A stretch of DNA of 24,355 bases from a virus. Both the position numbers and the translations under genes were made by a program. Position 1 is the stretch's first letter; every line of letters starts with the position of its first letter. The stretch is taken from IMG/VR virus record IMGVR_UViG_3300045049_000056, positions 64,001 to 88,355 of that record; one strand, written 5' to 3'. Below the pieces are notes generated by a model. The model had not been told where the DNA came from. It was given only the letters and a program-made list of their open reading frames with translations, and did no database searches. Positions 7,261 through 22,541 of the stretch are shown here, piece by piece.

Positions 7261-7920
7261 ATGAAAAATATCATTGGCGTATGCCGCGTCTCTACCCGTC
7301 ATCAGGGCGAAACCCGTAATGGCCTTGAGAGTCAACGTGCAGAAATTGAGCGTTGGGCTTCCTATCATGGCTATAATATTATTACCATCATGGATGAGGT
7401 TGCGTCTGGTAGCTTACCTCTCAGTGAGCGTCCTGTGATGTCGGCTGCTCTGGCAATGGCTAAGAAGATGAAAGCTGTTGTTGTGGTGACGAAGACAGAC
7501 CGTTGTAGTCGTGATGCTGAAATCATCCACACACTGATGCAAAAGAAGCAGATCGTCGTGTCTATTGATCTTGGTGTGGCACCTGATGAGTTTGTAGGGC
7601 ACATCTTTGCTGGTTTGGCTCAGAAAGAACGGAAGATGATCGGCATGCGTACAAAAGCTGGCCTTGCCGCTGCCAAGGCTCGTGGCGTCATTCTCGGAAA
7701 CAGAACTAATCTGAAAGAAGCGCAATCTCTTGGGCAACAATCTCAGGCAAAACGTGCTGACTCTTTCGCTCAAAGTATGAAAGTGACGATTCAAGCTTTC
7801 CAAAAATCCGGCATGACGCTGCAACAGATTGCTGATGAACTGAATGCTCGTGAAATTGCCACTGCACGAGGCGGAAATTGGCACACTTCTACGCTGCGGA
7901 ATGTCATCAGCCGCTGGTGA
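7261..7920 (+). CDS. Small serine recombinase (resolvase/invertase family)
   Basis: 219 residues. The catalytic domain opens IIGVCRVSTRHQ with nucleophile Ser11, then QRAEIERWA and TKTDRCSRDAEII, which carries the conserved Arg residues near 81 and 84. Its end is a resolvase-like long helix (AGLAQKERKMIGMRTKAGLA). The C-terminal 45 residues (MTLQQIADELNAREIATARG) form a helix-turn-helix DNA-binding unit. The length suits a resolvase or invertase rather than a large serine integrase. The start at 7261 follows AAGGAGAACAAC. Substrate sites are not identified; the repeat-rich gene-free region just downstream is the obvious place to look. Confidence 0.92.
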   Translation: MKNIIGVCRVSTRHQGETRNGLESQRAEIERWASYHGYNIITIMDEVASGSLPLSERPVMSAALAMAKKMKAVVVVTKTDRCSRDAEIIHTLMQKKQIVVSIDLGVAPDEFVGHIFAGLAQKERKMIGMRTKAGLAAAKARGVILGNRTNLKEAQSLGQQSQAKRADSFAQSMKVTIQAFQKSGMTLQQIADELNAREIATARGGNWHTSTLRNVISRW

Positions 7921-8009
7921 GAAATTTCTTTAAAAATATTTTTCAACATCATGATTCTAAAGAGAAATATGTAGTGTCAAACTGATAAATATCTGTGCAG
8001 GACATCTGT

Positions 8010-8043
8010 AAGGGAGGGCTTCTTTTGAGGCTGCTCCCTTTTT
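8010..8043 (+). terminator. Terminator after the recombinase
   Basis: AAGGGAG (8010-8016) pairs with CTCCCTT (8034-8040) followed by TTTTTGCG. An inner CTTC/GAGG pairing may extend it. It lies about 90 bases after the recombinase stop. Confidence 0.8.
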
Positions 8044-8079
8044 GCGTTTTTAGGTGGCTTTCCTAGATTCGTCACTGAG

Positions 8080-8122
8080 GCGGTTTCGTTGCTTAATGGG
8101 GCCGCCCAGTACGGAAAACCGC
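8080..8122. repeat. Inverted repeat GCGGTTT/AAACCGC
   Basis: Perfect 7-bp arms at 8080-8086 and 8116-8122, separated by 29 bases that include GGGCCGCCC. Located just after the recombinase terminator, it could be a recombination half-site pair or an RNA hairpin. Confidence 0.4.
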
Positions 8123-8136
8123 CCCTCTCTGAGCCC
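8122..8136 (+). repeat. Direct repeat copy 1, CCCCTCTCTGAGCCC
   Basis: An identical 15-base copy lies at 8261-8275. Two exact copies 139 bases apart are unlikely by chance in a window of this size. Confidence 0.6.
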
Positions 8137-8260
8137 TAAAATATCAAGGCAAACTGTATTCGGTCGTATACGGCTTGTCTTTTGCCCTCCTCTAGCCTAC
8201 TCCTCACGCCATCCCATTAGCGCACGCTTGCCCATCGCTACCTAGCTAGCCCCACGCAAT

Positions 8261-8275
8261 CCCCTCTCTGAGCCC
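8261..8275 (+). repeat. Direct repeat copy 2, CCCCTCTCTGAGCCC
   Basis: Second exact copy of the 8122-8136 element. The bases just outside differ (TAAAA after the first copy, CATAG after the second), so the repeat unit is short. Confidence 0.6.
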
Positions 8276-8432
8276 CATAGCGCCCCTCTGCGGCCTTCCT
8301 TTCGCTCGTCCTACGTCTACCTACACAGATCGTCCTCTCACAGCCCTAGCGCCTCGTTAGCTGCTGCCATGCTGCTATACAGGTCTGTCTCGTCACGCTA
8401 TCACGCCGTCCTGTGCGGACATGCTGCAATAG

Positions 8433-8448
8433 ATAACCATTTGGTTAT
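8433..8448. repeat. 16-base palindrome ATAACCA-TT-TGGTTAT
   Basis: Perfect 7-bp arms around a TT centre. It sits 23 bases left of the CRP-like dyad, a spacing that would let one regulator influence the other. It resembles a dimeric repressor operator. Confidence 0.45.
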
Positions 8449-8470
8449 GAATTAGTGCGCTTGTGTGGAA

Positions 8471-8486
8471 TGTGACGTACATCACA
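8471..8486. promoter_or_regulatory. CRP/Vfr-type binding site
   Basis: TGTGACGTACATCACA matches the TGTGA-N6-TCACA consensus exactly in both half-sites, with A/T flanks (AA before, AT after). No clear -10 is placed at the canonical distance on either strand, so it may act through a weak promoter or non-transcriptionally. Confidence 0.55.
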
Positions 8487-8644
8487 ATGCCCTTGTGTTT
8501 GCCCAAGGGTGCGAGGTTTTGAGAGGGAAACGAAGTTTTGCTAAACTACTATGTCCCTATTAAATGCTGCCCAATAGCACTCTGTCCCTAATTAGCCTAT
8601 TTAGCACACTACGCAGCCACACAGAAAAGCGCTCGCACAAAAGG

Positions 8645-8664
8645 AAAAGACCGCATTAGCGGCC
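8645..8664 (-). terminator. Terminator of the 9127-8667 operon
   Basis: Read leftward: GGCCGC (8664-8659), loop TAAT, GCGGTC (8654-8649), then TTTTCCTTTT. The U-tract pattern is shared with the leftward terminator at 24161-24197. Confidence 0.85.
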
Positions 8665-8666
8665 TA

Positions 8667-8861
8667 TTATGTATTACTCTGCAACAAAGATTGCCAATAC
8701 TCTAGCCTAATCTTTTGGTAGGCTAAGTCTTCTATGTAGTTCTTAAGTAATCCTCTTTTACCCTTTTCAGGATGCTGTTGATAGTATGCAATGCTCTTCT
8801 CTGCAATACCTATCTCGTGTTTATGCCATTCAATCATAGCTTGCACATCCACATTAATCAT
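8667..8861 (-). CDS. Small helical protein, unknown
   Basis: 64 residues, opening MINVDVQAMIEWHKHEIGIA. It is predicted to be two long helices, with aromatic and Gln-rich C-terminal residues (QKIRLEYWQSLLQSNT). The start overlaps the upstream stop by ATGA. Last gene before a strong terminator. Confidence 0.78.
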   Translation of the reverse strand: MINVDVQAMIEWHKHEIGIAEKSIAYYQQHPEKGKRGLLKNYIEDLAYQKIRLEYWQSLLQSNT

Positions 8862-12297: not shown

Positions 12298-12411
12298 TTA
12301 TTTGTAGTCCTTCGTAATGATGTAAATTAAATACCCTACGACAACAACACTGATGATGTAGGTTAGGATTGTGAGGATTGCATCATAAGATGCGCTGTCG
12401 TCGTAGCTCAT
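12298..12411 (-). CDS. Membrane micropeptide, 37 aa
   Basis: A single transmembrane helix (ILTILTYIISVVVVGYLIYI) preceded by the acidic MSYDDSASYDA and followed by Lys/Asp/Tyr/Lys. The start lies one base after the upstream stop and the stop is two bases before the next ATG, so it is embedded in the operon. The negative N-terminus and positive C-terminus favour a periplasmic N-terminus. Confidence 0.65.
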   Translation of the reverse strand: MSYDDSASYDAILTILTYIISVVVVGYLIYIITKDYK

Positions 12412-12412
12412 G

Positions 12413-12649
12413 TTAGTAATCGCTATCCTCATGCCAGTCAATCACACCCGCTTGCAAACCCTCTTGCATCATTTCAATACACCATTTCTTAGGATCAGCA
12501 TCAATAAACCATGTGCGACTATCATTCATCCACTGTTTTGCATGTTCGATTGCATCCTCTTCATTCTCAGCAATCACTGTCACGTTTTGAAGGTATGCGG
12601 AAAAGTAACTTCCACACTCAGAACGACAAGAGATATTATAGATGTTCAT
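12413..12649 (-). CDS. Small phage protein, unknown
   Basis: 78 residues. The ATG at 12649 opens MNIYNISCRSECGSYFSAYL; an upstream in-frame extension runs through a hydrophobic region belonging to another gene. It contains VTVIAENEEDAIEHAKQWM, a strand plus helix typical of small phage proteins that end in a helix after a beta sheet. GGGATTCTATG supplies a ribosome site. Confidence 0.75.
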   Translation of the reverse strand: MNIYNISCRSECGSYFSAYLQNVTVIAENEEDAIEHAKQWMNDSRTWFIDADPKKWCIEMMQEGLQAGVIDWHEDSDY

Positions 12650-12650
12650 G

Positions 12651-12776
12651 TCATAGAATCCCAGCTTTATGAAAATCGTAATATACAGCGAATGGCAAGC
12701 TAAACAGAGCAAGAGCCATCAGCACTAACCAAGCTACAAAGCATGCTGTGTGGATGCGTTCAAAGAGGGTGTTCAT
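12651..12776 (-). CDS. Membrane micropeptide, 41 aa
   Basis: 41 residues with one hydrophobic helix (CFVAWLVLMALALFSLPFAV, residues 12-31) after a short polar start MNTLFERIHTA. It overlaps the upstream gene by 17 bases and ends two bases before the next ATG. Lys/His near the C-terminus. Confidence 0.6.
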   Translation of the reverse strand: MNTLFERIHTACFVAWLVLMALALFSLPFAVYYDFHKAGIL

Positions 12777-12972
12777 TGCACACACTGTATATCAAAGCAA
12801 AACGTTTCTTTTCATACTGCATTATCTTACCATTAGCTCTTTCAACCCAAATCCAATCGGAGTGCGGGTATTTGTTAAGAGTAACTATCTCCCCTAGAGA
12901 CAATCCACCATCGCACTCTGAACCGTCTTCCATTTTGACATCTATTGTCAAAAGTTTATCTCCTATTTTCAT
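12760..12972 (-). CDS. Small phage protein, unknown
   Basis: 70 residues, opening MKIGDKLLTIDVKMEDGSEC. The pattern GEIVTLNKYPHSDWIWVERA resembles an SH3-like small beta barrel. The ATG at 12972 follows GGGGTGTAAG. Overlaps the downstream micropeptide gene by 17 bases. Confidence 0.78.
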   Translation of the reverse strand: MKIGDKLLTIDVKMEDGSECDGGLSLGEIVTLNKYPHSDWIWVERANGKIMQYEKKRFALIYSVCNEHPL

Positions 12973-12982
12973 CTTACACCCC

Positions 12983-13180
12983 TTAGTTGTTTTCTGCACG
13001 ATGTTGAAAGTACACAGCAAGGATAACACACACCAGCATAGGAAGAGGCATCGTCACAATGCTATTGCTCATGAAAGGCTCCAGAGCTACAGCCAAATCG
13101 AAGCCAGCAAAGAATGCCGGGAGAGTGCTAATCATGCACAGGAAGGAAAGAGCGATGTAGAGGAAAGAAGAGGATTTCAT
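12983..13180 (-). CDS. Small membrane protein, two TM segments
   Basis: 65 residues with two predicted transmembrane helices (about 6-26, FLYIALSFLCMISTLPAFFA, and about 40-58, VTMPLPMLVCVILAVYF). The ATG at 13180 follows ACGGAGCAACAA. It is the first gene after the promoter at 13214-13242. Small two-pass proteins in phage early regions can be holin-like or superinfection proteins; no lysis enzyme is adjacent, so this stays open. Confidence 0.72.
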   Translation of the reverse strand: MKSSSFLYIALSFLCMISTLPAFFAGFDLAVALEPFMSNSIVTMPLPMLVCVILAVYFQHRAENN

Positions 13181-13213
13181 TTGTTGCTCCGTGTTTGTTG
13201 AGTCAGTAGAGAC

Positions 13214-13242
13214 AGTGTACGCAAGATTCTTAAGCTTTGCAA
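13214..13242 (-). promoter_or_regulatory. Leftward promoter with tandem AAGCA-type repeats
   Basis: Read leftward: TTGCAA (13242-13237), 17-base spacer, TACACT (13219-13214). On the + strand TAAGCTTTGCAAGCAC shows the 9-bp-spaced units. It lies just downstream of the 13252 gene stop. Confidence 0.62.
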
Positions 13243-13251
13243 GCACTGTTC

Positions 13252-13464
13252 TTAAGAAATCTTACTGTTCTTACGAAGCAACACTTCCAGAAGATTTAGA
13301 GCATTGTCTATACACTCTGTCTTAGTATCGCCGCAAACAGGGCCGGAGTACACTGTCATTCCAAGGCTAGGATGTTCTAACACTTGCGGACTGTAGATTT
13401 CCCTTCCTTCAGAATCTACTAGCCGCCAAGGCTGACGGCTGTAACTCAATTTTTCAATCTTCAT
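13252..13464 (-). CDS. Small phage protein, unknown
   Basis: 70 residues. MKIEKLSYSRQPWRLVDSEG and the segment YSGPVCGDTKTECIDNAL suggest a small beta-hairpin plus helix. The ATG at 13464 overlaps the upstream stop (ATGA); the frame opens earlier with GTG but that lies inside the upstream gene. Confidence 0.75.
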   Translation of the reverse strand: MKIEKLSYSRQPWRLVDSEGREIYSPQVLEHPSLGMTVYSGPVCGDTKTECIDNALNLLEVLLRKNSKIS

Positions 13465-13592
13465 TTTTCCCACACCTCGTAGCAGCCAGCAGAAACAGGA
13501 ACAACGTAGAAGAAACGACCGTTAGCGGTAAAGTTTGCAATACGGCAGAACAGGTTGGCATCGGATTCGGTGTTGTAGGTTGCGTATTTCAT
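13461..13592 (-). CDS. Small phage protein, 43 aa
   Basis: MKYATYNTESDANLFCRIAN, then FTANGRFFYVVPVSAGCYEV: a beta-rich 43-residue product. The ATG at 13592 follows ACGGAGCAGCGAAC and is first after the strong promoter at 13626-13654. Function unknown. Confidence 0.72.
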   Translation of the reverse strand: MKYATYNTESDANLFCRIANFTANGRFFYVVPVSAGCYEVWEK

Positions 13593-13625
13593 GTTCGCTG
13601 CTCCGTTGTTTGAGTTGATGTGCTT

Positions 13626-13654
13626 ATCTTACTTGCGCTATCTGTCAGTGTCAA
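13626..13654 (-). promoter_or_regulatory. Leftward sigma-70 promoter, divergent from 13728
   Basis: Read leftward: TTGACA (13654-13649), 17-base spacer, TAAGAT (13631-13626). It lacks the second AAGCA unit seen at other leftward promoters. Paired back-to-back with the consensus rightward promoter 74 bases away. Confidence 0.8.
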
Positions 13655-13689
13655 CAACTTTCTTGTTTATTTTTGTGTTTGTTAGGCGA

Positions 13690-13705
13690 CATGGCGCTAG
13701 CCATG
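13690..13705. promoter_or_regulatory. Dyad between divergent promoters (possible operator)
   Basis: CATGGC-GCTA-GCCATG, a perfect 6-bp dyad lying midway between the leftward promoter at 13626-13654 and the rightward promoter at 13728. Position and symmetry fit a dimeric regulator site; an RNA hairpin is the alternative. Confidence 0.45.
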
Positions 13706-13727
13706 CTTGTACGCCTTAAATCAATAA

Positions 13728-13756
13728 TTGACAAGAATCACTTTGTACTATATAAT
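13728..13756 (+). promoter_or_regulatory. Perfect consensus sigma-70 promoter
   Basis: TTGACA (13728-13733), exact 17-base spacer, TATAAT (13751-13756). It is the only fully consensus promoter in the window and drives the rightward island 13801-15215 against the surrounding leftward operons. Confidence 0.92.
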
Positions 13757-13800
13757 TCTATAGTTGTGCAATACTTTTATCTACTTCTAGAGGAACCACT

Positions 13801-13998
13801 ATGCCACGTAAGAATTTTAGTTATGCAAATGCCACTGTAGCACAGATTTTTGAACACTTCAAGACATCATCTGCTCAAGCTATCCATCTTGCTAGGAAGA
13901 CATGGAAGACTGACGAGGAAGTGTCTAACCGTGTTGAGGATGCATATCGACAGTACAAGATGTACAAGTTAGAGGAAAAGTTGTCTGTGCGGGGCTAA
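13801..13998 (+). CDS. Small basic protein, unknown
   Basis: 65 residues. MPRKNFSYANATVAQIFEHF, then a helical basic segment (AQAIHLARKTWKTDEEVSNR) and a basic tail. The AxxIxxHFxTS and helical spacing could be a helix-turn-helix or RNA-binding unit, not proven. Preceded by TAGAGGAACCACT and the perfect promoter at 13728, so it should be strongly expressed. First gene of the rightward island. Confidence 0.78.
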   Translation: MPRKNFSYANATVAQIFEHFKTSSAQAIHLARKTWKTDEEVSNRVEDAYRQYKMYKLEEKLSVRG

Positions 13999-21442: not shown

Positions 21443-21726
21443 TTCCCCTTCTCAAACAATGCGCCAATGGCTAGGCGTGTTTCAAACTTAACAGGATCAC
21501 GGCGGTATTCGATACGTATTTGGCCGTTAACACTTCGTGTCACAATCGCGTGTAGCTCGCCTGTGTTGTCGTCGTACACTTCCGCGCTAGATGCCTGATA
21601 ATGATTTACTTGCATATGGGCCACACATTTAGCAACAGCCCAATTGGCATCGCTAGAACTGTTCACCTGTACGGGATCGTGGTAGCGTTTCCCGCGATAA
21701 AATTTTGTCCTAATTGTCCTTTTCAT
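21439..21726 (-). CDS. Phage protein, unknown
   Basis: 95 residues, opening MKRTIRTKFYRGKRYHDPVQ, strongly basic at the N-terminus, then a sheet with VYDDNTGELHAIVTRSVNGQ. The ATG at 21726 overlaps the endonuclease stop (ATGA), so it is translated from the same message. The upstream extension belongs to the endonuclease frame. Confidence 0.78.
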   Translation of the reverse strand: MKRTIRTKFYRGKRYHDPVQVNSSSDANWAVAKCVAHMQVNHYQASSAEVYDDNTGELHAIVTRSVNGQIRIEYRRDPVKFETRLAIGALFEKGK

Positions 21727-22541
21727 GCTGCGTCCTTTGGTTCGATATTGATACAGAATTCTTCGTATGACCACAGAAAACCGTAAGCACATTTCAAAAT
21801 TGTACTATTAGAAAGCCTTCGCCTGATAGTTGCAATATTCGCATCAGGAAACCCGTTTTGCCTTAACCACGTTTCAGCCTTTTTCACACTTTCAAATTTC
21901 ATACCGTTGGAACAAAATATGTTTCGTATTGTTTTTGTTTTGTATTTGATTGGTTCATCTATTGCGCAATCGTGATTTGTCTCATCAATCACGCCGTTAA
22001 TGATATATCTCCACCTAAATCCTGCGCATGTATCAAGACGACCACTGCAACAGTTTTGAATTCCACCTTTATTAATTTTCACAAAACCTTGACTTTTCAC
22101 CCATTCAGTGGCAGCAGTAATACTATCAAAAGACATTCCGTTAGAGCATACAACAGGAGTTTTCGGCCTGTTCTCACTCATCTTTCTTCGTGTCTCCTCG
22201 GATTGCACATGCCCCATTTTTGCGGCGCTAATTCGTTTGCAGTGTTCTTCAGTTCTCACAAGACCGCTAATTCCTTCTCCACCGTCAGTTAAGTTTGTCA
22301 AAGGATGCCCGGCCTCACGATAGAATTTGATCAATTCAATCTCTAAATCGAATGCATCACTCTCGGTTAGTTCTTTTTCCACATACTCTATAATCACGCC
22401 ATGTTTCTTGGCTGTCCGCTGCCAATATTCGTTGCGTTTGGTTGACTGAGATGCCCTTGGTCCGGCGCCTTTCCCGACGTAAAACACTTCGTTATCTGTT
22501 GCACGACGGTGGAGATACACATAAAAATCTTTTCGTTCCAT
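21723..22541 (-). CDS. Freestanding GIY-YIG homing-type endonuclease with NUMOD repeats
   Basis: 272 residues. GIY-YIG module: DFYVYLHR (5-12), VFYVGKG (19-25), catalytic Glu near 67-69 in DLEIELIKFY. A NUMOD3-type unit follows (HCKRISAAKMGHVQSEETRR, 100-119), then two NUMOD1-like repeats, VVCSNGMSFDSITAATEWVK (130-149) and NIFCSNGMKFESVKKAETWL (207-226), which bind DNA. This is the architecture of phage homing endonucleases that nick or cut intronless alleles. It has its own promoter with a 130-base leader carrying repeats (22610-22664), and downstream genes are ATGA-coupled to it, so it may drive them. Confidence 0.92.
   Translation of the reverse strand: MERKDFYVYLHRRATDNEVFYVGKGAGPRASQSTKRNEYWQRTAKKHGVIIEYVEKELTESDAFDLEIELIKFYREAGHPLTNLTDGGEGISGLVRTEEHCKRISAAKMGHVQSEETRRKMSENRPKTPVVCSNGMSFDSITAATEWVKSQGFVKINKGGIQNCCSGRLDTCAGFRWRYIINGVIDETNHDCAIDEPIKYKTKTIRNIFCSNGMKFESVKKAETWLRQNGFPDANIATIRRRLSNSTILKCAYGFLWSYEEFCINIEPKDAA

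Follow-up and report, generated by a model that had tools for sequence, protein, structure and literature searches.

Rho-loading (rut) sites are described as unstructured, ribosome-free stretches in which C exceeds G over 70–80 nt and a C recurs every 11–13 nt (PMC6407284). Strong strand skews of this kind are also found at places where operons of known phages converge. Felix O1 (NC_005282) has a 1.6-kb gene-free convergent gap at 12306–13927 that holds both genome extremes of C minus G, the highest in its left part and the lowest in its right, so that RNA leaving either operon is C-over-G. Erwinia phage M7 (NC_041978) has a similar large gene-free convergent gap, running from about 83684 to 876 across the record ends, from which C-over-G RNA likewise leaves both operons and whose C-side value ranks third in the genome; by eye, the two ends of the record share a repeat of about 444 nt within the gap. 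The Felix O1 and M7 gaps show opposite strand skews and quasi-repeats about 10–11 nt apart (CTTAACA, CTTCTAA). The convergent gap of KPP10 is shorter and moderately C-rich, and is not a genome extreme.

The stretch analysed here (the window) comprises 24,355 nt, positions 64001–88355 of an 88,355-base IMG/VR virus record. Its terminase, ribonucleotide reductase and PhoH have best identities of 42%, 49–53% and 48%, respectively, to KPP10/PAK_P5, Felix O1-type and similar myoviruses, and by this measure the source phage is a distant relative of these phages. A search of INPHARED returned no similar DNA, no DNA in common with any named phage was found (the sole two matches of one search are a tRNA), and the open PMC papers searched include none on the element described below. 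Because such genomes are gene-packed, an untranslated stretch of 500–750 bases that is kept in them is likely to be under selection.

Anatomy and conservation of the gene-free segment

The segment lies between two intrinsic terminators where operons converge. Its features and the flanking genes, with positions in the window, are:

7261–7920, + strand: small serine recombinase, 219 aa, with a Resolvase domain; last gene of the + strand operon
7921–8011, no strand: AT-rich left flank, co-evolving with the recombinase gene; AAATATC motif at 7987
8012–8043, + strand: intrinsic terminator of the recombinase operon, a GC-rich hairpin (about 8012–8038) and T tract (sequence and scan)
8071–8148, + strand: conserved landmark H1, of GCTTAATRGGGCC or GTCTAACAGTGCCC type, ending in AAAATATC (alignment of 14 members)
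8122–8136, + strand: exact 15-base repeat, first copy
8185–8411, + strand: C-rich, G-poor core, rut-like (C 0.44, G 0.17)
8261–8275, + strand: exact 15-base repeat, second copy
8428–8453, no strand: inverted repeat, 12+2+12, 83% complementary
8471–8486, no strand: second dyad, TGTGA-N6-TCACA, seen in the sequence (spacer of 4 or 6 in relatives)
8488–8541, + strand: conserved 3′ block (GATGCCCAAGGTTGTGCGATTACCGAAC type in several relatives), then TTTTG
8548–8590, + strand: two ACTvTGTCCCTA copies, 31 bases apart, the only two occurrences in the record
8648–8665, − strand: intrinsic terminator of the converging operon (scan; alignment-fold z −4.5 on the − strand)
8667–8861, − strand: nearest gene on the converging side, 64 aa, function unknown

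The element as a whole runs in this left-to-right order: AT-rich flank, + terminator, H1, AAAATATC, C-rich core, dyads, 3′ block, short repeats and − terminator. Not all parts are present in every member, and L009 and L011 are the most diverged.

A first-pass annotation had described 7921–8666 as a gene-free segment of unusual, C-rich composition, bounded by terminators and holding an exact 15-base repeat, an inverted repeat and a 16-base palindrome, and all of this is borne out except the last item, which stands in part. The main ORF within the segment (63 aa, 8054–8245, + strand) is not kept in relatives, and the longest ORFs of 16 members differ in frame, place and length; a protein-coding gene in an unusual place was rejected on this lack of ORF conservation. 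Nowhere in the 88,355-base record does C exceed G as strongly as in this segment, where C minus G reaches +48 per 150 nt at window position 8197 (record position 72197) against a next highest value of +34 and a record mean of −1.3 (sd 11.9); over 8100–8420 the fractions of C and G are 0.396 and 0.190. Both terminators were found and are kept in relatives, the + strand one with alignment-fold z of −5.4 and −6.3 (window plus L003). The exact repeat has a length reached in none of 500 dinucleotide shuffles of the region, and at the position of the inverted repeat a dyad is kept in relatives, but its sequence is not and its spacer length varies. The reported palindrome, ATAACCATTTGGTTAT at 8433–8448, is present as a dyad but is not perfect, its two 7-base arms flanking an unpaired TT (7+2+7). 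No perfect palindrome in the region exceeds 12 bases, a length that 88 of 500 shuffles reach, and the palindrome alone is thus not beyond chance.

The second dyad, TGTGACGTACATCACA at 8471–8486, matches the CRP pattern, TGTGA-N6-TCACA, but this is probably due to chance, since the spacing of the two halves in relatives is either 4 or 6 bases. Two other ideas were rejected: a phage-wide promoter function for AAATATC (the record has 12 copies, with no general role seen) and the element as a genome terminus (it sits inside contigs, not at fixed ends).

Loci L002–L014 were obtained by recombinase searches, and L045, L047/L032, L056, L065, L078/L079/L082 and L084 by matching DNA patterns taken from the element. 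A third search, which used terminase and neither recombinase nor element, gave 29 loci, and the nine on long contigs were followed (eight new ones plus L096, which is the L007 record). L007, whose contig ends inside the recombinase, was dropped, as were L008 and L014 (recombinase only, no element seen) and DNA-pattern matches without a convincing blast match to elements; the count of extra members omits L012, almost identical to L011, and L078/L079, which represent the same phage as L082. The final set had 16 members at first, to which L122, L124 and L126 were added later.

The comparison across related phages that the first-pass annotation had suggested finds the segment in the same place, with no conserved gene in it, and by these alignments the element is not a one-off but is kept in a group of Felix O1/KPP10-like phages. 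Landmarks are conserved across members, and the core stays C-rich even where its sequence does not align: C-richness is seen in all 13 members examined, with skews of −0.38 to −0.60 that include non-aligning cores, and in 14 of 16 members, all but L004 and L011, the locus reaches its C-minus-G maximum within the element. R1, a profile of the H1 sequence alone made from 14 members, has one match each in 15 of 23 records, among them four (G018, G019, G023 and G024) that are outside the model and were found by the terminase search. R1 has no match in G009, G010 and G013, whose elements are too diverged, or in G020, G021, G022, G025 and G026; G026 ends in the recombinase, the G022 fragment shows no recombinase, and in G020, G021 and G025, the most distant by terminase (63–71%), no element was seen beside the recombinase. 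One member, L065, looks mosaic, its left part and recombinase being like those of L056 and its core and 3′ part like those of L010.

Recombinase and HNH genes beside the element

The recombinase matches Pfam PF00239 (E 8.9e-24) and phrog_125 ‘DNA invertase’ (E 1.2e-31). Its link with a special gene-free segment, noticed in the first-pass annotation, holds across relatives: in each of 18 records a Resolvase-family gene lies no more than about 2 kb from the element (17 have one, and one has two). Such a gene is nearby in all seven records found via element DNA, two of which are the same phage, and in the four R1-positive records found by terminase. It is inverted with respect to the element, reading away from it, in L045, L122 and L124, and in L082 and L084 it is of another type and is separated from the element by a 72–74-aa gene and an HNH gene. 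Absence of the recombinase from L045, L047/L032 and L082/L084 was considered and ruled out, the gene being inverted or up to about 2 kb away.

This constant proximity, kept even where the recombinase is inverted or of a different type, would favour the element as a target of its neighbouring enzymes, that is, a resolvase-type or homing site for serine recombinases and HNH proteins that share a DNA-binding end. Against this, in 55 pairs of 11 members (the 11 of 16 that were parsed; pairs are not independent) recombinase identity has Spearman correlations of 0.65 with the left flank and 0.44 with the core, but of 0.18 with H1 and −0.07 with the 3′ block. Since the left flank tracks the recombinase and H1 and the 3′ block do not, the recombinase and its terminator behave, on these correlations, as a cassette that is exchanged next to an element with its own inheritance. 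Serine recombinase sites such as res, hix and gix have dyads with a fixed half-site and spacer length, common to recombinases of one type. In the element the dyad spacer and sequence vary and show no co-variation with the recombinase, and no second inversion site was found in the record, where the best other match to the 26-bp inverted repeat is 19/26. The res or inversion site suggested in the first-pass annotation is thus weak, there being no second copy, a variable repeat and no tracking of the recombinase by H1 and the 3′ block; more generally, a recombination or inversion site is weakly supported because the recombinase varies in type, distance and orientation beside a constant element, whose landmarks do not follow recombinase similarity. 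The Felix O1 and M7 gaps have no annotated recombinase beside them, and three distant relatives have a recombinase with no recognisable element alongside. We regard an enzyme target as quite improbable, more so than any other role considered here.

In several relatives short HNH proteins are encoded upstream of the recombinase (relative to the element, at −1203 in L002, −1186 in L004, −1270 in L006, and others), and in a blastp grouping their C-terminal half resembles the recombinase DNA-binding end. These are possibly homing enzymes that share the recombinase target. A 272-aa ORF at 21723–22541 (− strand) of the window has a start that reads, by eye, like a GIY-YIG endonuclease.

Termination, origin and RNA readings of the element

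Transcription termination, which was absent from the first-pass annotation, fits the composition and place of the segment better than its three guesses (a res or inversion site, an origin, an undescribed RNA). Our preferred reading, held tentatively and somewhat short of probable, is of a conserved zone of transcription exit, untranslated and set where two operons converge, with a candidate Rho-loading (rut-like) core behind an intrinsic terminator. RNA polymerase passing the first terminator would make C-rich, G-poor, ribosome-free RNA; host Rho could load on this C-rich RNA as on a rut site; and read-through would be halted before running antisense into the opposing operon.

Both operons end in intrinsic terminators, and in the + direction the stretch between them is C-over-G, folds weakly and is kept in place and composition. 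The layout of the Felix O1 and M7 gaps, with C-over-G RNA on both outgoing sides, also speaks for this reading. The published description of rut fits the window at 8185–8189, where C/G is 3.8 and C minus G is the largest among all such matches in the record, although these criteria are unspecific, 3158 of the 3868 spaced-C matches in the record having C/G above 1. The window + strand core also has the weak structure looked for in Rho-dependent terminator RNA (−0.172 kcal/mol per nt against a mean of −0.222, sd 0.040, for random 227-nt windows), and its z of +0.45 against shuffles indicates that the weak folding is due to composition only. Evidence from YC spacing is weak because the lag set (10–13 and 21–23 nt) was chosen after an earlier look at spacing: values above shuffles occur in the window core (p 0.007), on both sides of M7 (p 0.012, 0.003) and on the right side of Felix O1 (p 0.001) and in none of four control stretches; seven of 11 element cores and the Felix O1 left side are not significant, and a YC spectral test is significant only in L013. 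Against an exit zone stand the C-richness of only one outgoing direction in the window, the intrinsic terminator already present, the exceptions L004 and L011 to the locus maximum, the KPP10 gap, which is no genome extreme, the third rank of the M7 gap on the C side, and conserved blocks that exceed Rho's needs. An exit zone would account for the place, the orientation, the composition without fixed sequence and the absent fold, but not for these blocks; because Rho loading alone does not explain them, a further role is probable for H1, the dyads and the 3′ block, whether protein binding, a short RNA or initiation.

A replication origin or DNA-initiation region, in which dyads, short repeats and strand asymmetry would form a cis site for an initiator and the right-end binding-site cassettes would be exchangeable, accounts for the dyads, for the presence of just one copy and for the DnaA boxes seen in two lineages, yet leaves the window itself unexplained. 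Every R1-positive record has a single R1 match, and each near-complete record a single strong match to the element. At the place of the ACTvTGTCCCTA copies, where other lineages have different short direct repeats, three exact DnaA boxes (TGTGGATAA) lie in about 65 bp in the L082/L078/L079 phage (L082:7352–7416) and again in L124 (reverse complement, about 2612–2680); in the 12 records searched, a set without L124, no other pair of exact boxes lies within 30 bp. In Felix O1 the gap holds 24 YTGTTA on one strand, of 175 genome-wide on both strands. However, 14 of 16 members, including the window, have no DnaA box with up to one mismatch (L011 and L082 are the exceptions), so that for the origin proposed in the first-pass annotation the boxes of two lineages stand against their absence from the window and the majority of relatives. 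The core is rich in GC rather than AT, no initiator gene was recognised, and neither an AT-rich unwinding stretch nor a genome skew switch was found at the element, the AT-rich left flank going with the recombinase gene. Cumulative GC skew, a check put forward in that annotation, has no minimum here but a local maximum explained by gene direction, the record minimum being at about 2–5 kb. The ICP1 early origin maps near 60 kb (PMC7145576), and the annotated ICP1 record is gene-dense there, with no such gap. Because an origin leaves the window itself unexplained and the ICP1 early origin is not in such a gap, we prefer the exit zone and consider an origin unlikely, if still the strongest of its rivals. 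Less likely again is a hub role, in which the element would serve a group of Felix O1/KPP10-like phages for both replication initiation and recombination: present in single copy, it would carry exchangeable initiator-binding cassettes and be the target of swapped recombinases and HNH enzymes; were this true, DnaA boxes or other repeats would be lineage-specific cassettes, and enzymes with matching DNA-binding ends would have been repeatedly swapped there.

We give a similarly low probability to an untranslated RNA gene, either a + strand element transcript or a short RNA from a right-end promoter, acting as a regulator or sponge. The conserved blocks do lie in untranslated DNA, the related phage PAK_P3 makes abundant late small RNAs, though elsewhere in its genome (PMC4933390), and a sigma70-like + strand site at the 3′ block scores 14.0 in L084, 11.6 in C1094 and 9.8 in L005, L010 and L065, but the window has a score of just 7.1. 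In none of 16 members is the folding of either core strand clearly stronger than that of shuffles (for the + strand against dinucleotide shuffles, z runs from −1.2 to +0.8 in all 16), and alignment folding gives a clear signal solely at both terminators, with core z about 0 on both strands (in the 12-member alignment-fold set, extreme z at gap-rich ends is not meaningful). H1 and the 3′ block have mean z of −0.54 and −0.25; hairpins with compensating changes, seen there by eye in H1 and at the 3′ end, were rejected, as the stem register shifts between members and shuffles are unsupportive. No Rfam family reaches its gathering score, the best weak match in the window element having 19.9 bits against a cutoff of 50. 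With no conserved core fold and no Rfam match, the undescribed RNA of the first-pass annotation is weak as a structured RNA.

Comparison with known systems

The exit zone that we prefer resembles a Rho-dependent terminator in its excess of C over G along more than 78 nt, its spaced C, its weak folding and its untranslated position after an operon's last gene. It is unlike one in being much longer, in lying behind an intrinsic terminator and in its conserved sequence blocks, and its Rho dependence is predicted. The PLE satellite origin (Vibrio cholerae) is, like the element, noncoding, with short repeats and dyads, whereas no initiator gene was found for the element (PMC7145576). The late small RNAs of PAK_P3, a member of a distantly related phage group, are likewise intergenic, but are about 100 nt long and lie between other genes and between tRNAs (PMC4933390).

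The Felix O1 and M7 gaps share with the element a large gene-free junction of converging operons and strongly skewed strands. They differ from it in that they have no recognised sequence similarity to it, are AT-rich, are skewed in both outgoing directions, are built of short quasi-repeats and have no recombinase annotated alongside. The element is a defined, testable DNA unit in a group of lytic phages about whose origins, terminators and recombinases little is known, and it draws attention, in the model phage Felix O1, to a comparable gap that with a laboratory strain is open to deletion and assay.
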